Assembly (NCBI GenBank): GCA_016203135.1
Contig: JACQNI010000006.1
Coordinates: 1-43,937, forward strand
DNA length: 43,937 nt
Direction: 5' to 3'
Origin: Candidatus Woesearchaeota archaeon
Lineage (GTDB): Archaea > Nanobdellota > Nanobdellia > SCGC-AAA011-G17 > JACPNG01
The translations under genes and the position numbers were made by a program. Numbering within the stretch: the first letter of the stretch is position 1; the number at the start of each line of letters is the position of its first letter. Positions 92 through 41,288 of the stretch are shown piece by piece. Under the pieces are notes generated by a model, which ran no database searches, was not told where the DNA came from, and was given only the letters and a program-made list of their open reading frames with translations.

Positions 92-691
92 TTATTTTAT
101 TCTTAATAATTTTCCTTGTTTTCCTGGATTTATAACCCTGCAATTCTTGACCCAATCAACCTTGCTATCGTTCTCATGAAAATGACCACAGACAGCAAGA
201 ATAGGATTTACTTCTTCGATAAATTTTCTTATGGACTTGTTTCCGCGATGCTCTTTTGACCAAGGTAAATAATCTACTGCTGTTCCATAAACAGGGGCAT
301 GAGTTATTAAAATAATTTTATCGTCTTTTTTAATTATTTTTTTGAATTTTTTTGCTAAGTTATCAAATTCTTTGTCTTCCATTGAAAAACCGCTGCCGCC
401 ATATCCTAAAAATAGAAATCCATTTTTTCTTATGAAATCCTTGTGAATATATTTAAGATTTTTAAACTTGCCACATAGCTTTTTGAGTTCATTGTCCATT
501 TCATGGTTTCCTGGAATTATCAATGTTTCTTTATTAAGGTTATTTAACTCATTCAGGAATTTATTTAGATTAGAGCTAAAATTAGAAATATCTCCGGCAC
601 ATATGATTAAATCAGCAAGCTTGGATTTTTCCTTTATTCTCTTTAAAGCTTGCAAGTTTTCATGAAGGTCAACGAACGCCAGGATTTTCAT
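92..691 (-). CDS. Metallophosphoesterase (calcineurin-like)
   Basis: FVDLHEN, CAGDISN, PGNHE, THAPVYG, CGHFHE metallophosphoesterase motifs. Confidence 0.9.
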   Translation of the reverse strand: MKILAFVDLHENLQALKRIKEKSKLADLIICAGDISNFSSNLNKFLNELNNLNKETLIIPGNHEMDNELKKLCGKFKNLKYIHKDFIRKNGFLFLGYGGSGFSMEDKEFDNLAKKFKKIIKKDDKIILITHAPVYGTAVDYLPWSKEHRGNKSIRKFIEEVNPILAVCGHFHENDSKVDWVKNCRVINPGKQGKLLRIK

Positions 692-3156: not shown

Positions 3157-3987
3157 ATGGAAATAAGATTTGCTGCATTATGGAATAGGATTGGAGCAAA
3201 AGAAGCTCATGAAGAAAAATTTGCTAAATTAGTTTCTATGTATTCAGAACCTCAAAGATTTTACCATAATATGGATCATGTTAAAAACTTGCTAGTGGAG
3301 TTAGATTCTGTAAAAAATCCATTTGGACTTCAACCTGATTTAGTTGAATTAGCGATTTGGTATCATGATGCTATTTACAACACTCGGGCTAAAGACAATG
3401 AAGAAAGAAGTGCACAATTGGCTTATGATGTTTGTATATCTGCTCAACTCCCAGAAACATTAGGTAAAAGAGTAAAAAACTTAATATTAGCAACTAAGCA
3501 TGATGTAGTTCCTAATGGAATAGATGCAAGAGTTTTGATAGATATTGATTTATCAATACTTGGAAAATCTCCTCAAGAATTTGATGAATATGAAAAAAAT
3601 ATTAGAAAAGAATACTCTTGGGTTCCTGAAGATAAATATAGAGAAGGAAGAAGTGCAATACTTAAAAGGTTTTTAGATAGAAGTGAGATATATTTAACTG
3701 ATTTTTTTAGGAGCAAATATGAAATACAAGCACGTGAAAATATCATTCATTCAATGAAAAAGCTGGAGAATAGTTCTACAGGAAGCTTGGAATCTAAATT
3801 GAGATTATCTGAGAGAGATATGAAGGATCTTCCAGAAGCAAGCATATTTAGCCATTGGTTAGAAGACGATACCAAAGAAAAACCTTATCCTGAAGCAGGC
3901 ATTGGATTATTCAGTAACTATGTGGAATCTTGTGAAAAAAAAGATCTTCCAGAAGCAAGTATATTTAGCCATTGGTCAGATGATTAA
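3157..3987 (+). CDS. HD-domain metal-dependent phosphohydrolase with repeated C-terminal tail
   Basis: YHNMDHVKNLL, WYHDAIYNT, ATKHD, LIDIDLSILG typical of predicted HD hydrolases; tail contains DLPEASIFSHW twice. Confidence 0.85.
   Translation: MEIRFAALWNRIGAKEAHEEKFAKLVSMYSEPQRFYHNMDHVKNLLVELDSVKNPFGLQPDLVELAIWYHDAIYNTRAKDNEERSAQLAYDVCISAQLPETLGKRVKNLILATKHDVVPNGIDARVLIDIDLSILGKSPQEFDEYEKNIRKEYSWVPEDKYREGRSAILKRFLDRSEIYLTDFFRSKYEIQARENIIHSMKKLENSSTGSLESKLRLSERDMKDLPEASIFSHWLEDDTKEKPYPEAGIGLFSNYVESCEKKDLPEASIFSHWSDD
3826..3984 (+). repeat. Two-copy 38-bp near-identical direct repeat (period 117 bp) inside the HD protein 3' end
   Basis: gatcttccagaagcaag[c/t]atatttagccattggt[t/c]aga at 3826 and 3943. 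Confidence 0.9.
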
Positions 3988-4161: not shown

Positions 4162-4266
4162 TTATTCTAAATATCCTACCATGAATGCCTCTTCCCATGC
4201 AGCCAATTCATCGTCTTCAACCATCTCTTGAAGCAACTCCTCCATGTAAACATCATTTTCTCTCAT
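4162..4266 (-). CDS. Small acidic 34-aa protein MRENDVYMEELLQEMVEDDELAAWEEAFMVGYLE (below ORF-track cutoff)
   Basis: Preceded on minus strand by aagaGGTGAtaaaaATG; start overlaps preceding small ORF by 14 nt. Confidence 0.75.
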   Translation of the reverse strand: MRENDVYMEELLQEMVEDDELAAWEEAFMVGYLE

Positions 4267-4345
4267 TTTTATCACCTCTTTTTAATGGTAGATTTACTAA
4301 TGTTTTGCTCAGCAATGAGCTTATTGTCTTCATGCTTGTATCCAT
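4253..4345 (-). CDS. Small 30-aa protein MDTSMKTISSLLSKTLVNLPLKRGDKNERK (below ORF-track cutoff)
   Basis: Strong SD: aaaGGAGGTGgatgatATG; coupled to downstream acidic small ORF. Confidence 0.65.
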   Translation of the reverse strand: MDTSMKTISSLLSKTLVNLPLKRGDKNERK

Positions 4346-4375
4346 ATCATCCACCTCCTTTGATATGTTCTAGGA

Positions 4376-4412
4376 TAGAGCTCACGCTATATTCATTCAA
4401 CTATTAGCTCTA
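4376..4412 (-). promoter_or_regulatory. Inverted repeat TAGAGCT...AGCTCTA in putative 5' leader of small-ORF operon
   Basis: 7-bp perfect inverted repeat, 23-nt loop, just upstream of the SD. Confidence 0.4.
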
Positions 4413-4455
4413 TGCCAAGAATTTTCTTAACTCTTAATATTCATAGGAAAATTTA

Positions 4456-4463
4456 TTTATAAA
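4456..4463 (-). promoter_or_regulatory. Candidate archaeal TATA box for small-ORF operon
   Basis: tttataaa (minus-strand context ggatttataaataaatt) upstream of the leader. Confidence 0.35.
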
Positions 4464-4517
4464 TCCTGCGGGTATGTTGTCGCGAGTGTCGTCTAGGAAT
4501 ATACTAGAAAATATACT

Positions 4518-6809: not shown

Positions 6810-7187
6810 TTAATCTTTCTTTTTGCTTCTAAATGTAGAAGCTAGGTCTATTATATACTTGCCGTCTTCAAGCCTATAGACAAGTGGTTTCCCTTTAAAC
6901 AATTCAACAACATCAAGCTGGTACTTGCCTGGCTCTAATACCCTTATGGATTCAAGATCAAGGACAACTGGGCTTTCATCCCCTTCAATGCCTATAAGCT
7001 CAAAAACATCCTTTTCAATCTGGATTTTTTCTTCTGGAGTAAGGTTCTTGACTATTTCTTCTGCTTCTTTTAGCTGATTTTCCTTGATAAAGAAAAAGAA
7101 CTTTCCACCACATTCATTGCAACCTTTAAGAAGATTAACACTACCATCTGGATAAATTATATTGCACTTGACACACTGGTGAGGCAT
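6810..7187 (-). CDS. oapC: Zn-ribbon DUF2072 / OapC-like protein
   Basis: MPHQCVKCNIIYPDGS...GCNECGGKFFFF Zn ribbon and conserved DUF2072-like C-terminus. Confidence 0.8.
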   Translation of the reverse strand: MPHQCVKCNIIYPDGSVNLLKGCNECGGKFFFFIKENQLKEAEEIVKNLTPEEKIQIEKDVFELIGIEGDESPVVLDLESIRVLEPGKYQLDVVELFKGKPLVYRLEDGKYIIDLASTFRSKKKD

Positions 7188-7570
7188 TATCTCCTCCTTT
7201 TTCTTATTTTGTCTACAGTGAACAATTGAACCTTTGTTGGATCTTTTCTAATCTCTTTTATAATAGCTGCAGGACCGATGATTGTAAATCCTTGCCTGTT
7301 GCCTACTAACAAGCTAACCATACCAGCTTTAAACTTGCTGATAAGGCCATAGTCTTCTTCTGCTTTAATTGTACATAATTCAATTCCTTTAAATGATTTG
7401 GTCACATTTTCCATTGTTCTTTCAATCAATGCAGCTTCTTCATTAGACCTAAGCTTTCCTTCTACTAGGACTATTTTGTTTTCCTTGACAAGATCTAAAA
7501 TTTTCTTAATCTTGCCAGAAGTTGTCAAATTATTAATTTCTTTGTATGGGATAAACTGCAAAGTTAACAT
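7187..7570 (-). CDS. oapB: DUF2073 / OapB-like protein
   Basis: Position between DUF2072 and GTPase; sequence consistent with DUF2073 (KIKKILDLVKENKIVLVEGKLRSNEEAALI). Confidence 0.75.
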   Translation of the reverse strand: MLTLQFIPYKEINNLTTSGKIKKILDLVKENKIVLVEGKLRSNEEAALIERTMENVTKSFKGIELCTIKAEEDYGLISKFKAGMVSLLVGNRQGFTIIGPAAIIKEIRKDPTKVQLFTVDKIRKRRR

Positions 7571-8208
7571 TATTTTATCACCCTAAACAAGCTTTCATAA
7601 AATTCTTCTATGTTATTTCCATTTAATGCTGAAACTCCAATCACTTCATATTGGGGAAATGCATCTTCAATGGCTTTCAAGTTAGATTTTTTTAAATCTA
7701 CTTTATTTCCTATAACCAAAACAGGGATGTTTCTTGCTTGTAAATTTCCTAAAATAGTTAAATTTACTTGGGAATATGGATTTTTTGTGCTGTCTAAAAC
7801 AACTAAAACACAGTCCATATTGTCAAGCCATTTTATTGCTTCTATGACACCTTTTGTTGCTTCTTTTGCTCGTTTTTTTGCTTCCTTGACAGACATCCTA
7901 TGCTTTAAAAAGTCTTCATAATCAATTCTTGTCGCTATTCCCGGGGTATCTACAAGATTAAAGCTGATGCTTTTACCTTTTTTTGATTTTATTTCTACTT
8001 TCTCTTTGATTTTTATCTCTCTTGTTTCATGTGGGATACTAGAAACAATGCCCATTTCTTCTCCGATCCAATCAACACAGATTTTGTTTGCTAAACTAGT
8101 TTTTCCAGAATTAACAGGGCCGTATAGGCCTAATTTAATATTTTTCTTTTGCTTAAATATATTGTTTAACACCCTTTTTATGAAATCACCTATGCGAATA
8201 ATCATCAT
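7570..8208 (-). CDS. oapA: Era/Der-like small GTPase (origin-associated)
   Basis: GPVNSGKTS (G1), DTPG (G3), GNKVDL (G4), SAL (G5). Confidence 0.85.
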   Translation of the reverse strand: MMIIRIGDFIKRVLNNIFKQKKNIKLGLYGPVNSGKTSLANKICVDWIGEEMGIVSSIPHETREIKIKEKVEIKSKKGKSISFNLVDTPGIATRIDYEDFLKHRMSVKEAKKRAKEATKGVIEAIKWLDNMDCVLVVLDSTKNPYSQVNLTILGNLQARNIPVLVIGNKVDLKKSNLKAIEDAFPQYEVIGVSALNGNNIEEFYESLFRVIK

Positions 8209-10244: not shown

Positions 10245-13200
10245 ATGATTTTAAAAGATTTAAAACAAATAGATGAAGTAACTTGGGAGATTCCTACTAG
10301 TTTTAAGAAAGGCATGTTAGTTCCTGCTAGAATAATTGCTACAAAGAAGCTTTTTGATGCAATGGATGATGGGGTTTTTGAGCAAATCACTAATGTAGCT
10401 ATGTTACCTGGAGTTCAAAATTATGTAATAGCTATGAGTGACTCTCACTTTGGCTATGGTTTTCCTGTTGGAGGAGTTGCTGCTATGGATTTAGAAGAAG
10501 GAGTTATTTCTCCTGGCGGAATCGGTTTTGATATAAATTGTTTAGCTAAAGGATCTAGAATTTTGACAAAGCATGGATATACTAAAAAAATAGAAGAATT
10601 TGAGAAAGAGTTTTATAAAGAGAATTTAATAACAATTGATCTTAAGAAAAAAAATGAAGATTCTTCTCAACCAGTTCTTTTTATGAAAAAACCAGTAAAT
10701 AAAGAAAAGGTTTATAGATTTATTACAAAAAGTGGAAAAGAAGTAATTGTTACAGAAGATCATCCTATATATACTAAAACTGGAATGAAAATAAGCAAAG
10801 ATCTTCGAGAAGGCAATGAAATTGCAGTTTTCCCATTTGAAGGAGTCCCTTATGAAAAACCAGAAGATGATTTTTTAATTACAGAAGAAGAATTTAAAGA
10901 ATTTATTAAAGATAGAAGCTTAACTTCACAAATTCAGGTAGTTAACATTTTAAAAGAAAAGGGATTATTACCTTTAGTTAGATCTTCTGATAAGTTGCCT
11001 TATTTAATAAAACTGATTGGATTTCTAACTGGAGATGGGAATATTACCTTTACTAAAAAAACACAGAGTATATCTTTTTATGCCAATGAAGAAGATTTAG
11101 GAGATATAAGAAAAGATGTAACAGCTTTAGGATTTACACCATCAAGAATACGGGCTAGAACTAGGAAACATAGCATAAAAACTAGATATGATTTAATTGA
11201 ATTTGAGAGAACAGAATATTCTTTTACTTCAATGTCTAGTGCATTAATTTTGCTCTTAAAATTTCTTGAAGCTCCATTGGGGAAAAAAACAGAATTAGAT
11301 TTTAGAATACCAAAATGGTTATTTAAATGTCCTTTATGGCAAAAAAGACTTTATTTAGCTACTTTATTTGGAGCGGAATTATCAAGCCCTTCAACCAAGA
11401 AAAATCTTGGATATACTTTTAATACTCCCACTTTATCTATGAATAAACATGAAGATCATATCAATTCTGGTTTTGAATTTTTAAACGATATTAAAAGAAT
11501 ATTGGACGAACTTAGCATAAAGACAAGGGAGATATCAATAAGGGATGAATATGATGGTTTAACTGGGAAAACTTATAGATTACGTCTTTTTATTTCAGAC
11601 GAATCTATGCTAGACTTATATAAATATGTTAATATAGAATATAATAAAAAGAAAAGGTTTCTGGCTAATCTGGCTTTACAATATTTAACCTTAAAAAAGA
11701 AGATAATTGAAGAAAGAGTAAAGATACAGAAACAAGTAATCCTTCTTTATAATAATGGAATGAAAAGCAGCGAGATCTATGAAAAGTTTTCTTCTGAACA
11801 CATTAACAAAAGATTTTTGCAAAGATCTTTGTTTGAAGGTAGAAAGACAAGTCCTAGAATTGCTTACAATTTTATTAGCTTTAATGATTTTGTTGAGAAA
11901 TATGCTTTAAATCAATCTGGAGTAGTTTGGGATTTTATAGAGAAGAAAGAAGAAGTTCAATATTCTGATTGGGTATATGATTTTACTGTTGACAATAAAT
12001 CTCATAATTTTATTGCAAATAATTTGGTTGTATCAAATTGTGGGATGAAGATTTTAAGAACAAACTTAACAATAAAAGATGTCAAGCCAAAAATAAAAGA
12101 AATTGTTCATGAATTATTTGATTCAGTTCCTACTGGAGTTGGGGCTTCTTCAAAATTAAAATTAACAGACTCTGAAATAGATGAATTATCTAGATATGGA
12201 GTAAAGTGGTGTGTAGATAATGGATATGGATGGAAAAATGATGACAAAAAAATAGAGGAGCATGGATACATCAAATGGGCCGATCCAAGCAAAGTCAGTC
12301 AAGAAGCAAGGAATAGGGGAAGAAAACAAGTAGGAACTCTAGGAAGTGGAAATCATTACCTAGAAGTTCAATTTACAAAACCAGAATTTATTTTTGATGA
12401 AAAAATTGCTAATGGATTTGGGATTAATGGAAATGATCAGATACTTATAATGGTGCATTGTGGATCAAGAGGATTTGGGCATCAAATTGCAACTGATTAT
12501 TTAAAAATATTTGATAAGGCCATGAAAAAATATAATATTACTATTCCAGATAGGGAATTAAGTTGTGCTCCTTTGAATACTAAGGAAGGACAAGATTATG
12601 TTGGCGCAATGACTTGTGCGGCTAATTATGCCTTTGCAAATAGACAGATGATAATACATAATGTAAGAGAAGCATTTAGTAAAGTCTTTAAACAATCTGC
12701 AGAAGATATGGAAATGGAAATAATTTATGATGTTGCACATAACATTGCAAAAATTGAAAAGTATAAGGTTGATGGAAGACTAAAGGAATTATTAATACAT
12801 AGAAAAGGGGCAACCAGAAGTTTTGGACCTGGAAATGAAGAGCTATGGGGGAATTATTCTAAATATGGACAGCCAGTTATTGTAGGAGGGAGTATGGAAA
12901 CTGGATCTTATTTATTGGTTGGAACTAAGAAAGCAGAAGAGACAACTTTTGGAAGCACTTTGCATGGATCTGGAAGAACAATGTCCAGAACAAAGGCTAA
13001 AGGAATGGTAAGGGGAGATAAATTGCAAAGAGACATGGAAGAAAGGGGAATATATGTTAAGGCTGCATCAATGCCTGGATTGGCTGAAGAGGCTGGATTG
13101 GCTTACAAAGATATAAATGAGGTTGTCAAGTCTGTTGAACTAGCTGGAATTTCAAAACCTGTTGTAAAATTATCTCCTCTTGGAAATATCAAAGGCACTG

Positions 13201-13268
13201 CTGGTTTTAATATTATAAACTTGTTTTTTTTATTACTGGTTGCTTTATCTTTGATCTCAATTCTGTAA
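10245..13268 (+). CDS. rtcB: RNA-splicing ligase RtcB with in-frame intein and hydrophobic C-terminal tail
   Basis: SDSHFGYGFPVGGVAAMD, GGIGFDIN|C, GTLGSGNHYLEVQ, HCGSRGFGHQI, AHNIAKIE, HRKGATR, GTLHGSGR motifs; start moved to ATG 10245. Confidence 0.96.
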   Translation: MILKDLKQIDEVTWEIPTSFKKGMLVPARIIATKKLFDAMDDGVFEQITNVAMLPGVQNYVIAMSDSHFGYGFPVGGVAAMDLEEGVISPGGIGFDINCLAKGSRILTKHGYTKKIEEFEKEFYKENLITIDLKKKNEDSSQPVLFMKKPVNKEKVYRFITKSGKEVIVTEDHPIYTKTGMKISKDLREGNEIAVFPFEGVPYEKPEDDFLITEEEFKEFIKDRSLTSQIQVVNILKEKGLLPLVRSSDKLPYLIKLIGFLTGDGNITFTKKTQSISFYANEEDLGDIRKDVTALGFTPSRIRARTRKHSIKTRYDLIEFERTEYSFTSMSSALILLLKFLEAPLGKKTELDFRIPKWLFKCPLWQKRLYLATLFGAELSSPSTKKNLGYTFNTPTLSMNKHEDHINSGFEFLNDIKRILDELSIKTREISIRDEYDGLTGKTYRLRLFISDESMLDLYKYVNIEYNKKKRFLANLALQYLTLKKKIIEERVKIQKQVILLYNNGMKSSEIYEKFSSEHINKRFLQRSLFEGRKTSPRIAYNFISFNDFVEKYALNQSGVVWDFIEKKEEVQYSDWVYDFTVDNKSHNFIANNLVVSNCGMKILRTNLTIKDVKPKIKEIVHELFDSVPTGVGASSKLKLTDSEIDELSRYGVKWCVDNGYGWKNDDKKIEEHGYIKWADPSKVSQEARNRGRKQVGTLGSGNHYLEVQFTKPEFIFDEKIANGFGINGNDQILIMVHCGSRGFGHQIATDYLKIFDKAMKKYNITIPDRELSCAPLNTKEGQDYVGAMTCAANYAFANRQMIIHNVREAFSKVFKQSAEDMEMEIIYDVAHNIAKIEKYKVDGRLKELLIHRKGATRSFGPGNEELWGNYSKYGQPVIVGGSMETGSYLLVGTKKAEETTFGSTLHGSGRTMSRTKAKGMVRGDKLQRDMEERGIYVKAASMPGLAEEAGLAYKDINEVVKSVELAGISKPVVKLSPLGNIKGTAGFNIINLFFLLLVALSLISIL
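10539..12038 (+). mobile_element. RtcB intein (500 aa) with LAGLIDADG-type homing endonuclease region
   Basis: Extein DIN|CLAKGSRIL...FIANNLVVSN|CGMKIL; TEDHPIYT block B; LIGFLTGDGNITF; in frame with RtcB. Confidence 0.93.
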
Positions 13269-34746: not shown

Positions 34747-35941
34747 ATGTATGAAATATTAATCTCAATTTTAATAGGTATCTCTGCCGGAATAATAACC
34801 GGCTTGATTCCCAGGCATTCATACTAATCTTGTTGCTGTTTTAATGATCTCCCTTTCTAACTACTTATTAAAAATTTTCTCTCCGTTAGATCTAGTGATT
34901 ATCATTTTATCCATGGCAATAACAAATACATTTTTAGATTCAATCCCATCCATTTTTCTTGGAGCCCCAGATACATCTACTTCTATTTCTATCTTGCCAG
35001 GCCACAGATTATTAATGAAAGGCAAAGGCTTTGAAGCAGTAATCCTTTCATTGATCGGATCTTCAATATCCTTGCTAATAGTCATAGCATTATTTCCATT
35101 TACATTAAAAATAATAAAGATTGGATATCCAATAATAGAAAGATACATAGCTTATATCTTGATATCTGCAAGTGTTATTTTTATTATTAAAGAAAAAAAA
35201 TCCAAATTTCTGGCTTTTCTGCTATTTTTAAGTTCAGGAATACTAGGAATTGTTTCATTTTCCCTAGGCATTAAAGACGTTCTTTTTCCAATGCTTTCTG
35301 GCTTGTTTGGAATAAGCACATTATTGACTAGTTTAAACAACAATACAAAAATCCCAAATCAAATTATCTCATATCCAAAAATTACAAACAAGGAAAAAAT
35401 AACAGTTTTCTCTTCAATTTTCATCTCAAGTTTTTTTACAACAGTTCTTCCTGGTTTTAGTTCAGCCGAAGCATCTTCAATAGGAACATCAATATTCAAG
35501 AATATCAAAGGCAATTTATTTCTTGTCTTGGCTAGCGGAATAAACACATCAAGCATGATCTTAAGCATATTTACATTATATGCTATAGACAAGGCAAGAA
35601 ATGGTGCTGTAGTTGCCATATCAAGAATAATAGAAAACCTTAATCAAAACAATTTTATTTTATTGATTTCAGTTTCTTTAATCTCTTCTTCTATTGCAAT
35701 TCTGCTTGCGATAAACATTACAAAGTACATATCAAAAATAATTCCAAAGATAAATTACAATTTTTTATGCATTTCAATAATAATCTTTATTTCTGGATTA
35801 GTAATTATATTGTCTGGTTTTTATGGTTTCCTTGTTTTAGTAACTTCAACCTTTCTTGGAATAATTCCCCAAACAAAAAACATTGCAAGAAGTCATTTAA
35901 TGGGCTGTATACTTTTGCCAGTAATCTTGTATTTTATCTAG
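34747..35941 (+). pseudogene. TctA-like polytopic membrane protein, 1-nt frameshift near 34810
   Basis: MYEILISILIGISAGIITGLIP (ATG 34747) then frame change to PGIHTNLVAVLMISLSN; remainder is the 34844-35941 ORF. Confidence 0.75.
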
Positions 35942-38900
35942 ACTTTTTAGTCTTTTTCTTAGTTTTTAATATTTGTTCCTTTTTATTGCCGACTTTAATG
36001 GTCTCTGTAATTTTTTTATTATTAGTGGTTGTTTTTTTCTTTTTAACTTCTTTTTTTTCAGAGATTTTTCTTTTAGCAGCTTCAAGCTTTTTAACTTCCT
36101 TTTCAACTTTAACTTCAGGAGTCTTAAATAATATCTCTGGTGTTTTTATTTCAACTTTTTTAAACGACTTTGAATAATTCAATGCATTTCCTATGTCTTT
36201 TAAATTCCATCCAGCAGCCAATAGTTTATTTCTTATCTCTTCCTCGCTTACTCCCTTTTGTATGTTTAGCTTAGCATATTCATAAAGCCTATCCAAAACC
36301 TGTTTTCTCTTTACTACCTTCTCAGCATATTTAAATGATTCATCTATTTCATCTTGATTCCATCCAGCATCAAGTGAAGCCCTTCTTATCTCCTCCTTAT
36401 CCCTGCCCCTTTCTAAGCTTATTTTCACATAATCATTTAGCTGATTTATATTTGAATGTTTTTGCAGGACATTTTCAACATTCTTGAAAGAGCTTGCTAT
36501 TTTTTTATTCAGCTCATTAAAGTCTGGCTTTTCTCCCAAAAATAATTTTTTATTTTCCTGTTTTGTTTTTCTTTTTTTCATGGCAAAATAATAAGCAAGA
36601 ACTAAGATCAATAATAAGGCAGCTAAAATTCCGACTACTGTCCAAATAGATCCACCCTTGCTTTCCTTGCAATCACTAGGACAGTTAGTGCTATCTTCTC
36701 TATATCCATTTCCAAAGTCATCACAATTTCCATTTTCATTGCATACTGGCAATGAATCATCTCCATCATTAGTTCCATCATTATCTGTATCAGGATTATT
36801 TGGATCTGTTCCTGCTTCAACTTCTTCACTATCTGTTAATCCATCATTATCACTATCTCTTCCTGGACCTTCAGATATTCCACAATCACTAGGACAATTA
36901 CTGCTGGTCTCTCCAAGAGTGCAACTTCCGTCCCCGCATACTTTTGCCCCAGTATCACTGATGCATATACCATCAGTTTTACAAACCTTTCCAGCAGGAC
37001 ATCCACATAAAGAGCATTTCTCTTCTAAAACCCCAGATCTGCAGAAAAATGGCTTGTCATCAGAACACTCACTAAATGTTGTTCCATCTCCACATTCAAA
37101 GTCATCTGTTACTTGACAACTTGTATCATTTAAATCAACAAAATTATTGCAATCATTATCCAAGACATCATCGCAACTTTCTTCAGGGCTTTCATAATCG
37201 TCTATGTTATTATACTTACATTCCCCCCATAAACTATTGATGCATGTTTGATTGAATCCCTTACAAACCCCAAATTGTTTAACACATAATCTTGTTGTTA
37301 AATTCACTTGTATTCCTGTGCTATTGTTTCTAACAGCACAAGGACATCCTTCATCAGCACTTCCCTCACAGTTATTATCTAATCCATCAAAACAAACCTC
37401 TGCTGTAGGTCCAATTACACCAATGCAAGTACTCCCCCATAATCCATTGCTTTCACATCTCTGTACTCCAGCATTGCATATTCCAACAGAATTCCCACAA
37501 GACCTAGTAGTTCCAGCCACACATGGACCACATCCTTCATCAACAACATTATCGCAATCATTATCTTGATTATCACAAACTTCTAGACTTGGATATTTAA
37601 CCCCAACGCATTCACCCCATACAGCCCCAATAGAACTTTGAACACATTGCTGCATTCCTTGAATGCAAGCATTTGTTCCTCCGCAAGTCCTTATTTGATT
37701 TAATGTGCATTGTGGGCATCCTTCGTCTGAACTTCCATCACAGTCATTATCTAAATTATCCCCACAGAATTCAATTCCAGGATTTACTGAATTTTTGCAC
37801 TCACCCCATTCTCCTATTCCTTGACTGTTTACATTAATACAAGATTGAAGGCCATAACTACAAATTCCAACATCGCTTCCACATTGTTTTGTCTGATCCT
37901 TCACACAAGAATTACAACCTTCATTTATGCTTCCATCACAATCATTATCTAAATCATCATTGCATACCTCAGCACCATACTTAGGAATACTTGTATAATC
38001 ACATCCAGGCCACCTGCTATTTGTACATATTTCAAGAGAACCCTGGCAAACCCCTAATTGTTTAGGGCAGCTCTGTCTTTCTCCATTTGTACATTGTTGG
38101 CCAAGTGTACAGCTAGGATCAGCCTTAATACATTGGCCATATTTACTATTCGTCTGACAAGATCTAATATATTCACATTCTTTTGCATCAGGAACTTGTT
38201 GTTCATTTGGATAACACCTTATTTTATCATTTTGATTGCATTCAGCGCATTGAGTTGTATCTAAAGATTTGCAATTAACACAAGTTAAAGTTCCAGAAAC
38301 AAAATCATCAAATAATTTATCTCCATCTGCTTTAAGGCTTGTACAAGTTAAGCTTCCAGCAAATTTGCTTCCATCACATATTTCTCCTTGATCTATATTT
38401 CCATTGCCACATTGAGAAGGATCATTCTTTGGTAAGCATTCACTAAAATCAAAATTACATTTATTTGTTTGACTTGGAGGAATACATTTCAAAGTTCCAC
38501 CAGTAAGTCCAGGGAAATCAGTACATTTTTTATTGTTTAAATCTACATCATCACAAGACTCTCCAGTTTCTTGTATTTTATTGCCACAAACCGGAGTAGT
38601 TATTACACCACCTTCACATTGACTAGAATCATAAGATAAACAATCAGCTTTGCATTTTAATTGTCCTGATTTAAATGCTAAACTTTGACAAGTTTTTCCA
38701 TCTAAATCAGTTCCATCACAAGTTTCTCCCTTTTCCTTGACATTATTTGGACAAACTGGTTTTGTACAACTGCTGAAATCAAAATTGCAATTATTGCATT
38801 TTAATTGTCCTCCCAAGTAATTATCAAACTCAGGAGCACATGTCTTCCCTCCTAAATCAGTTCCATCACAAGCTTCTCCAGGATTTATTACCCCATTATT

Positions 38901-41288
38901 ATTACAGGTTGGGTTTGGTGTACATGTACTAAAATCAAAATTACTACAATCAGCTTTGCATTTTAAATTTCCTCCTGTAAATCCAGTAAAAGTAGTACAT
39001 TGTTTATTATCTAAGTCAGCTCTATCACATATTTCATTACCTTCTTTTATATTATTGCCACATGTTGATGGAGGTAATATTGTAGTCCCTTGACAAATTA
39101 CAGAGTAAACTCCAGGTTCAGTAACTGTTGCTTCTGCTTTTCCACTAACAATATTTGTTTGTAAAATTTGCCATGAAAAGCATTGGCTTGAAGTATATCC
39201 ATATTTAACTAACTTAATTTTATCTGTCTGGCAATTTGCTGAGTTATCATAACTTAAACTTAATTTTGTATTGCAGTTTCCAACATAATAAGACAATCCC
39301 GCTATGAGGTTATTACAATCTTCTTTATCAACTCCAAGAGGATTAGTTTCACAATTTCCTTTTGTTATAGTTGGTATAAATAATCTACATTCATTATTTA
39401 CTGCAAATCCAGTTATTTCTTTAACAGCTGCCCCAGTTGCAGGACATCCACTTGGTTGACCTGGATTTTGCTTGTTAAAACTAAAAGTAAATGTTTGTTG
39501 TTTTGTCCCCCTTGCTACATTAAGAACAACACTTTGGAAATCAGCAAGATTTTGAGATTTAAACGTAACAACATAAGTTAAATCCACAGAATGAGCAGAT
39601 GTAGAAGTTGTTAATGCATTGCTATTATCTGAAATTGTTATCTGTTCTTGGGATAATATCGGAGCCCCAATATCATTATATCCTATTGGCACTTGATTGA
39701 AAACAGCATCTGCCCTATAATTGCAATTTGTATCTGCTTGCACATTCAAAACAGTCCCTTGTGTAAGTTGAAGTATTTCATTAGAACCACTCGAAGTTCC
39801 GCCAGTCCCTGGATTAGGATTAATTGCTATAATGCCATCATTTGAAACACATTTATGCTGACCTAAATCATATATATCATTAGCCCCACAGCAATATCCA
39901 GCAATATATCTTCCATTGCAAGCATAAGTACATATAGCTTTTTTCCCATCAGCTACCTTGCAAGCACTTCCAGTCAAGCTACAACTTTGGCACCTATAAT
40001 TGCTACTGCAAGTGCTAGTGCAAGTTCCAACTAAATCTTGGCTTATAGTGCTACATTGACTTTGTTGTCCGCATCCTTTTTGTTGTGCTCCCCCAATTAC
40101 ATTCCCACCGCCACCAATTACTGGATCGCTTGCTGGTATGCATTCAACACAATTTCCAAGGCTGTTGCAATAGGGTGTTGCTCCAGAACATTGAACATCA
40201 TTCGTGCATTTTGTTTGTGGTGCACAATCACTATCCTGATTGTCTTTATTTCCATCGCAGTCATTATCCAAACTATCAGTACATCTTGTTTCTTTTTGCT
40301 CTGTTGGAATACATACTTGAGATTTTATACACTTCCCTTGTGAACAGGTTAATCCTTGGGAGCAGGTTAAAACTCCAGGGTCTGTTCTAGAACTACAACA
40401 ATCCTGGTTTTCATTTCCGCAAGTTGTAGAAGCTATGCAAAGATTATCTATGCAAGTTAATCCTTGATTGCAAGTTGCAGGTCCAAAAACAGATCTTGGT
40501 CTACAGCATTCTTGTCCAGAAGCACCACAAGTTAGTGTTGTTGTACTTATGCATTTTCCACTACTTGAATCCCATTTTTCTCCTTGTCCGCATATATAAA
40601 ATTTTCCGCATGAAATTGTTAGTAAATTACCAGATAAAGTCTCACCAACCTTCAACTTCGCGTTATATATTCCAGTGATATAAGCTGAAGGAATTATGTT
40701 TTGATTAAGTTCTGAAAAAGATCCAGAGCTATCTGTCCTAACTTTACTTTCAAATTTTGGTTCACCTTCAGAGTTTCCGTAAGAATTTATTAAAGTATAT
40801 TCTTTATTTGCAATACCTTTGCTTATATCAATTTTGATATTTGCCGGATCGCCAACATTTCTAACAGGAACCCCATCAGAATTAAGAGGACTCCCACCAC
40901 TAACCAAACAGCTTACAGAAGGAGGAACACAAGCGCCATTTTTACATTCAAACCCATTGGCACAATCCTGATCTGTAGATAAAGCGTCTGTATTTTCATT
41001 ATTGCAATAAAATTCATTAACAGTATCTCCATCAACACAGCCATCAATATATAAAACTTCAGATGTGCTGCCATCATCATAAACATATTCAACAGAAACT
41101 TCTCCCTTAACACCAATATTAAAACCATTGTCAGTCTCTGCTAAGCAGGTTGACTGAACTAATTTTGGACAAAATAATTCAAAACCAGAACCATCACACC
41201 AAAAAGGAGCAGCTTTTACATCACTTACAAAAATTATTCCAAATAGCAAAATAACAAATACAAAGATCAAACCATTTTTTTTAATCAT
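35934..41288 (-). CDS. Giant Cys-rich surface protein (MopE-like and DUF4215-like repeats, TSP3-like Ca-binding repeats, C-terminal TM and cytoplasmic helical repeats)
   Basis: Signal peptide; repeats EVCNDDLDNDCDGSINEGC, GEACDGTDLGGKTC; DSDNDGLTDSEEVEAGTDPNNPDTDNDGTNDGDD; TM WTVVGILAALLLILVLAYYF. Confidence 0.9.
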   Translation of the reverse strand: MIKKNGLIFVFVILLFGIIFVSDVKAAPFWCDGSGFELFCPKLVQSTCLAETDNGFNIGVKGEVSVEYVYDDGSTSEVLYIDGCVDGDTVNEFYCNNENTDALSTDQDCANGFECKNGACVPPSVSCLVSGGSPLNSDGVPVRNVGDPANIKIDISKGIANKEYTLINSYGNSEGEPKFESKVRTDSSGSFSELNQNIIPSAYITGIYNAKLKVGETLSGNLLTISCGKFYICGQGEKWDSSSGKCISTTTLTCGASGQECCRPRSVFGPATCNQGLTCIDNLCIASTTCGNENQDCCSSRTDPGVLTCSQGLTCSQGKCIKSQVCIPTEQKETRCTDSLDNDCDGNKDNQDSDCAPQTKCTNDVQCSGATPYCNSLGNCVECIPASDPVIGGGGNVIGGAQQKGCGQQSQCSTISQDLVGTCTSTCSSNYRCQSCSLTGSACKVADGKKAICTYACNGRYIAGYCCGANDIYDLGQHKCVSNDGIIAINPNPGTGGTSSGSNEILQLTQGTVLNVQADTNCNYRADAVFNQVPIGYNDIGAPILSQEQITISDNSNALTTSTSAHSVDLTYVVTFKSQNLADFQSVVLNVARGTKQQTFTFSFNKQNPGQPSGCPATGAAVKEITGFAVNNECRLFIPTITKGNCETNPLGVDKEDCNNLIAGLSYYVGNCNTKLSLSYDNSANCQTDKIKLVKYGYTSSQCFSWQILQTNIVSGKAEATVTEPGVYSVICQGTTILPPSTCGNNIKEGNEICDRADLDNKQCTTFTGFTGGNLKCKADCSNFDFSTCTPNPTCNNNGVINPGEACDGTDLGGKTCAPEFDNYLGGQLKCNNCNFDFSSCTKPVCPNNVKEKGETCDGTDLDGKTCQSLAFKSGQLKCKADCLSYDSSQCEGGVITTPVCGNKIQETGESCDDVDLNNKKCTDFPGLTGGTLKCIPPSQTNKCNFDFSECLPKNDPSQCGNGNIDQGEICDGSKFAGSLTCTSLKADGDKLFDDFVSGTLTCVNCKSLDTTQCAECNQNDKIRCYPNEQQVPDAKECEYIRSCQTNSKYGQCIKADPSCTLGQQCTNGERQSCPKQLGVCQGSLEICTNSRWPGCDYTSIPKYGAEVCNDDLDNDCDGSINEGCNSCVKDQTKQCGSDVGICSYGLQSCINVNSQGIGEWGECKNSVNPGIEFCGDNLDNDCDGSSDEGCPQCTLNQIRTCGGTNACIQGMQQCVQSSIGAVWGECVGVKYPSLEVCDNQDNDCDNVVDEGCGPCVAGTTRSCGNSVGICNAGVQRCESNGLWGSTCIGVIGPTAEVCFDGLDNNCEGSADEGCPCAVRNNSTGIQVNLTTRLCVKQFGVCKGFNQTCINSLWGECKYNNIDDYESPEESCDDVLDNDCNNFVDLNDTSCQVTDDFECGDGTTFSECSDDKPFFCRSGVLEEKCSLCGCPAGKVCKTDGICISDTGAKVCGDGSCTLGETSSNCPSDCGISEGPGRDSDNDGLTDSEEVEAGTDPNNPDTDNDGTNDGDDSLPVCNENGNCDDFGNGYREDSTNCPSDCKESKGGSIWTVVGILAALLLILVLAYYFAMKKRKTKQENKKLFLGEKPDFNELNKKIASSFKNVENVLQKHSNINQLNDYVKISLERGRDKEEIRRASLDAGWNQDEIDESFKYAEKVVKRKQVLDRLYEYAKLNIQKGVSEEEIRNKLLAAGWNLKDIGNALNYSKSFKKVEIKTPEILFKTPEVKVEKEVKKLEAAKRKISEKKEVKKKKTTTNNKKITETIKVGNKKEQILKTKKKTKKSR

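Follow-up and report, generated by a model that had tools for sequence, protein, structure and literature searches.

A conserved pair of overlapping small genes behind orc1 in Woesearchaeales

Two overlapping small genes, ORF1 and ORF2, follow the gene of an Orc1/Cdc6 family replication initiator in the window, by which is meant the whole stretch of 43,937 nucleotides analysed here (contig 88 of an archaeal genome of 0.91 Mb). Comparison with related genomes gives good support for both as conserved, protein-coding genes across Woesearchaeales, and it is very probable that they encode proteins that function together. Together they appear to be one protein split into two parts, produced by coupled translation and not by a programmed frameshift. 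The pair had escaped annotation and represents a real, uncharacterised small-protein system across the order.

Gene pair and linkage to orc1

The first-pass annotation had described a hidden bicistronic operon of a 30-aa and a 34-aa ORF beside orc1. Re-derivation from the window recovered the same coordinates, lengths and sequences, as well as the 14-nt overlap (Table 1). Both ORFs lie on the minus strand, after orc1 and on the same strand as it, with a promoter-like region of their own in between; ORF2 carries a net charge of -11. As had also been claimed, the pair lies below the ORF cut-off and the plus-strand ORF at 4185-4373 appears to be spurious. The latter is antisense to both ORF1 and ORF2. 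Beyond the window, significant matches to it are few (best E 2e-5), and at the loci checked they overlie relatives of the pair, which is what the antisense of a conserved coding sequence would give.

Table 1. Features of the orc1 locus and its neighbourhood in the window
Feature	Position	Strand	Remarks
Calcineurin-like metallophosphoesterase	92-691	-	Pfam PF00149
ORF2, 34 aa acidic peptide, MRENDVYMEELLQEMVEDDELAAWEEAFMVGYLE	4162-4266	-	Consensus IY......L.E.DEI...EEGFM.GY; predicted helical hairpin (AlphaFold2, fused relative)
ORF1, 30 aa, amphipathic-helix peptide, MDTSMKTISSLLSKTLVNLPLKRGDKNERK	4253-4345	-	Consensus D...I..IFS.QLR.LP; conservation, dN/dS
Shine-Dalgarno (SD) of ORF2, GAGGTGAT	4271-4278	-	Within ORF1 tail; about -12.7 kcal/mol
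SD of ORF1, GGAGGTG	4352-4358	-	About -14.7 kcal/mol
Promoter-like region between orc1 and ORF1	4452-4517	-	Equivalents in relatives; putative function
orc1/cdc6 family replication initiator, 355 aa	4518-5585	-	NCBIfam TIGR02928, E = 3.6e-54, above cut-off; directly upstream of ORF1
OapC	6810-7187	-	Upstream of orc1, wider neighbourhood; Pfam PF09845, PF09846 and PF01926 for the OapC/OapB/GTPase set
OapB	7187-7570	-	Upstream of orc1; same Pfam search set
Small GTPase gene	7570-8208	-	Upstream of orc1; same Pfam search set

Linkage of the pair to this orc1 paralogue was assessed in 93 genomes. On the same strand and within 4 kb downstream, ORF1 was found in 65 genomes and ORF2 in 58, with one or both in 74 and both in 49; no opposite-strand ORF1 or ORF2 was seen near orc1 in any of the 93. 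Among the 43 ORF1 matches in genomes not known to feed the ORF1 profile, 38 lay on the orc1 contig and strand and none on the opposite strand, though five alignment rows are unmapped and a few of these matches may be non-independent. Retrieval with the Orc1 of the window as query, which is blind to small ORFs, yielded 29 loci, almost all of which carry a Woesearchaeota or Nanoarchaeota label; the small ORFs were present in most of them.

The composition of the cluster varies. Some loci lack ORF1 or ORF2, or carry ORF0 in place of ORF1. ORF0 is a third, uncharacterised small ORF of about 40 aa with the motif YL.W.EY, found at L045, L046, L047, L052, L065, L069-L071, L090, L097, L116 and L119. 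Several genomes have it between orc1 and ORF1, and in other orders it comes after ORF2; at L057 it appears to be fused to ORF1. Directly upstream of orc1, relatives often have a gene of about 110 aa (MTELVACLSTGKGTWGHVSRLI...SGTGKEHMALLSALLKLGVG; L059, L066, L085, L088), which by eye resembles a CARF-type Rossmann domain and has no Pfam match.

Of 99 related genomes, 82 gave a match to ORF2 alone as query (E up to 0.1); at the scale of the phylum, the ORF2 profile matched 236 of 371 genomes (E up to 0.001), often in 2-4 copies. The ORF1 profile matched 73 of the 99 related genomes (E up to 0.01), with a single copy in each, at a fixed locus. When related loci were compared in pairs, dN/dS was about 0.05-0.4 for both ORFs wherever dS could be estimated, so selection acts on the two proteins. 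Conservation, synteny and dN/dS together rule out chance ORFs. The checks proposed at first pass included a search for both peptides in related genomes, a test for synonymous-biased substitution and a test of SD conservation; the peptides recur beside orc1 in dozens of genomes, purifying selection acts on both, and the SDs are kept (see below). With peptides, SDs, overlap, strand and linkage all conserved, the proposed operon beside orc1 is strongly supported.

No match to the pair was found in Pfam, NCBIfam, PHROGs or PADLOC, and no description of it in the open-access literature. The PDB contained no sequence relative of ORF2. The PDB matches of ORF1 were not credible, the best (E 0.0024) covering nine positions of a chain named k-cTRP5.

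Translation signals, overlap and fusions

SD strength was taken as the duplex energy with the 16S tail (archaeal anti-SD sequence). The energies of the two sites of the pair (Table 1) compare with a median of -0.6 kcal/mol for the 47 long ORFs of the window, only seven of which reach -5, and a value of -9 is attained by just 1.6% of the ATGs in the window. SD-led starts are therefore unusual here, and these values bear out the first-pass view that the pair has two strong tandem SDs of a kind that most genes of the window do without. In relatives, -5 is reached at 27/27 starts of ORF1 and 31/34 of ORF2.

The gap between orc1 and ORF1 contains, on the minus strand, an AT-rich element TATATTTTCTAGTATATTCC (about 4497-4516), a C/G-rich stretch GACGACACTCGCGACAACATACCCGC (about 4468-4494) and, upstream of ORF1, a TATA-like element GGATTTATAAATAA (about 4452-4466). 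Because the corresponding gap in relatives also has an AT-rich element shortly behind the orc1 stop, a C/G-rich stretch and a TATA box, the operon is suggested to have a candidate promoter of its own. The C/G-rich stretch is a direct repeat in several genomes (e.g. CTTGCCA.CTTGCCA, TGGACGCATTGGACGCAT). The ORF1 leader (4346-4432, minus strand) can form two predicted hairpins (z -2.4), the second of which would hold the SD in the loop and the start codon in the stem. No Rfam element matched over the region.

Across 24 pairs, the position of the ORF2 start ranges from 1 nt past the ORF1 stop to 53 nt ahead of it, with an overlap of 4-23 nt in most, and the frame offset from ORF1 to ORF2 is 1 in 17 pairs, 2 in seven and never 0. 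Since the ORFs overlap, translation of ORF2 is likely to be coupled to that of ORF1. Termination-reinitiation is known to couple the translation of overlapping gene pairs, and subunits of heteromeric complexes are over-represented among pairs with short overlaps (PMC6728339, PMC10666635). The present pair shares with them the co-directional stop/start overlap or near-zero spacing (14 nt in the window) and the SD in the tail of the upstream gene, and subunits of one complex are a common outcome in such pairs. It differs from them in its overlaps, mostly 4-23 nt against the usual 1 or 4, and in its products of only 30-40 aa, whose complex is so far a prediction.

Natural fusions of ORF1 and ORF2, as expected of a split protein, occur at L083, L085, L087 and L092, where one protein of about 57-66 residues still sits behind orc1. 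These fusions, together with the fact that both frames are open in the overlap, might point to a fused product made by programmed frameshifting. Nevertheless, such a frameshift needs a fixed offset, and both the offset and the overlap length vary between pairs, while ORF2 starts at an SD and ATG of its own. The better model is thus that the two are translated separately but in a coupled manner; programmed frameshifting was rejected as the least probable of the explanations considered.

Predicted structure and the ORF2 module elsewhere

An early AlphaFold2 run on four fused sequences only was weak (pLDDT 70). With 30 sequences, the fused relative was modelled with a mean pLDDT of 80. The ORF2 part is predicted to be a helical hairpin (pLDDT about 94) and the ORF1 part a helix (pLDDT about 77), with no confident packing of the one against the other (pTM 0.44). 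A Foldseek search of the model against the PDB gave no significant match.

ORF2-like sequences also occur away from orc1. The genome of the window has a second ORF2 copy on another contig (L050). Single ORF2-like genes stand opposite a conserved gene that matches the MazE/AbrB Pfam model at its N-terminus (MEYRKLIKFGNSS..; L005, L007, L008, L011, L018, L020-L022, L028, L038, L042), and this second conserved neighbourhood of the module is beside DnaJ in some cases. In other proteins an ORF2-like hairpin is N-terminal to TRASH/FCS-like zinc fingers, to a SecD/SecF-like protein (L100:3237-4637, plus strand) or to a Lys-rich tail (L108). Fusions of all types, cysteine-less zinc-finger look-alikes included, were found at L100, L108, L113, L029, L030, L104, L105 and L107. 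The TRASH/MYM-type FCS zinc-finger proteins of L029, L030 and L113 share the DEI..EEGFM.GY hairpin at their N-terminus; unlike them, ORF2 has no zinc finger. As these hairpins recur away from orc1 and in fusions, the module would seem to serve for docking in general, and the specificity of the orc1-linked copy may come from ORF1. A helical-hairpin module that is spread over the phylum and has no name is thereby brought to light, and one mini-protein that exists naturally in both split and fused form illustrates the evolution of such proteins.

Possible role and alternative explanations

Our preferred reading, adopted tentatively, is that ORF1 and ORF2 are coupled halves of a split mini-protein whose complex would serve Orc1 or the orc1 gene cluster. 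One short mRNA would yield the two products in linked amounts: ribosomes would load at the strong SD of ORF1, and initiation on ORF2 would use its own SD within the tail of ORF1, with termination-reinitiation accounting for at least part of it. ORF1, as an amphipathic helix, would then pair with the acidic helical hairpin of ORF2, joined by ORF0 in some genomes, and the resulting complex would be a small factor that assists or regulates the Orc1 initiator or the orc1 gene cluster. A physical complex of ORF1 and ORF2 is probable. Less firmly, we infer from synteny that it could act on Orc1 or on replication initiation, and the conserved linkage to orc1 (74/93 genomes; 38/43 out of sample) is what an accessory factor or regulator would display.

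Some observations weigh against this role: the occurrence of ORF2-type modules away from orc1 means that the module itself is not replication-specific, and a downstream metallophosphoesterase is likewise linked to the pair (see below). In addition, the GC skew of one closed relative (G041), taken over 800 of its 829 kb, has no minimum at the orc1 locus and so lends no support to an origin there; none is claimed. A wider formulation is more doubtful, namely that a lineage-wide micro-complex of two or three proteins of 30-45 residues (ORF1, ORF2 and sometimes ORF0), built on an acidic helical-hairpin module reused across the phylum for docking, might control Orc1-dependent initiation in Woesearchaeales and related small-genome archaea.

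Knowledge of the control of replication initiation in DPANN archaea, which are ultra-small and mostly uncultured, is very limited. A tiny conserved operon right behind orc1, below standard ORF cut-offs and absent from all family libraries searched, is a concrete candidate. SirA and YabA are small protein regulators that act on the bacterial initiator DnaA, and as small proteins acting on a replication initiator they offer a possible parallel to what is proposed for ORF1 and ORF2 on Orc1. No sequence relation is expected, and the proposed action on Orc1 follows from gene order only. Another parallel is with oapABC/arvABC (PF09845, PF09846), genes named for their linkage to replication origins (PMC10927574); OapB, OapC and a small GTPase gene are found upstream of this orc1. 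ORF2 and the relatives of ORF1 had no Pfam match and so none to the Oap families, whereas the neighbours at 6810-7570 do match. Since the origin-linked OapA of Haloferax, a GTPase, drives vesicle formation (PMC10927574), linkage need not mean a role in replication.

The heteromer might be real and coupled, yet have as its partner the downstream metallophosphoesterase or another product of the cluster, with orc1 merely a stable neighbour. This is unlikely but carries some weight, since about 30 loci have the metallophosphoesterase gene behind the pair and on its strand, in many relatives directly after ORF2, and since at L088 and L089 an ORF2-like gene on the opposite strand adjoins it, upstream of orc1. 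Nevertheless, orc1-ORF1-ORF2 occurs without that gene nearby at L033, L039, L047, L053, L071, L073 and L075, and the copy in the window is 3.5 kb away behind other genes. Slightly less plausible still is a general docking role, in which ORF2 would be one of many copies of a hairpin spread over the phylum, all binding a shared hub (chaperone, ribosome, RNA polymerase or similar); ORF1 would supply local specificity, and any effect on replication would be indirect. The spread and copy number of the ORF2 profile and the N-terminal fusions to zinc fingers, a SecD/SecF-like protein and a Lys-rich tail agree with this, but no hub was identified and Foldseek found no structural match in the PDB. It is compatible with the split-protein model that we prefer.

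The first-pass annotation had thought of an antitoxin-like, adaptor or regulatory peptide system. An adaptor or regulator is compatible with the data and is the reading retained here. The antitoxin-like part found no support: two overlapping small genes, one of them very acidic, do recall a type II-like toxin-antitoxin pair of very small proteins, but toxin, antitoxin and defence matches were absent from PADLOC, Pfam, NCBIfam and PHROGs, the single chromosomal site is conserved across families, some loci lack one half or have ORF0 instead of ORF1, and fused forms are unexpected of a toxin and its neutraliser. Such a pair is highly improbable. Equally remote is the idea that the ORFs are leader peptides or a cis-regulatory element in which translation matters and the product does not. 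The hairpin before ORF1, the strong SDs and the intergenic position would fit, while amino-acid conservation, low dN/dS, the fused forms, the dispersal of the ORF2 module into longer proteins and the lack of an Rfam match argue against it.

Other genes of the window also drew attention. At 3157-3987 (plus strand), a 276-aa protein with DLPEASIFSHW twice near its C-terminus contains an HNMDHV motif suggesting an HD-type hydrolase, with no Pfam match above cut-off. An RtcB RNA ligase gene at 10245-13268 (plus strand) is interrupted by an intein (Pfam RtcB 8e-164, Intein_splicing 5e-16). The 1784-aa protein at 35934-41288 (minus strand) has TSP3-like and MopE-like metal-binding repeats and is probably a surface protein.
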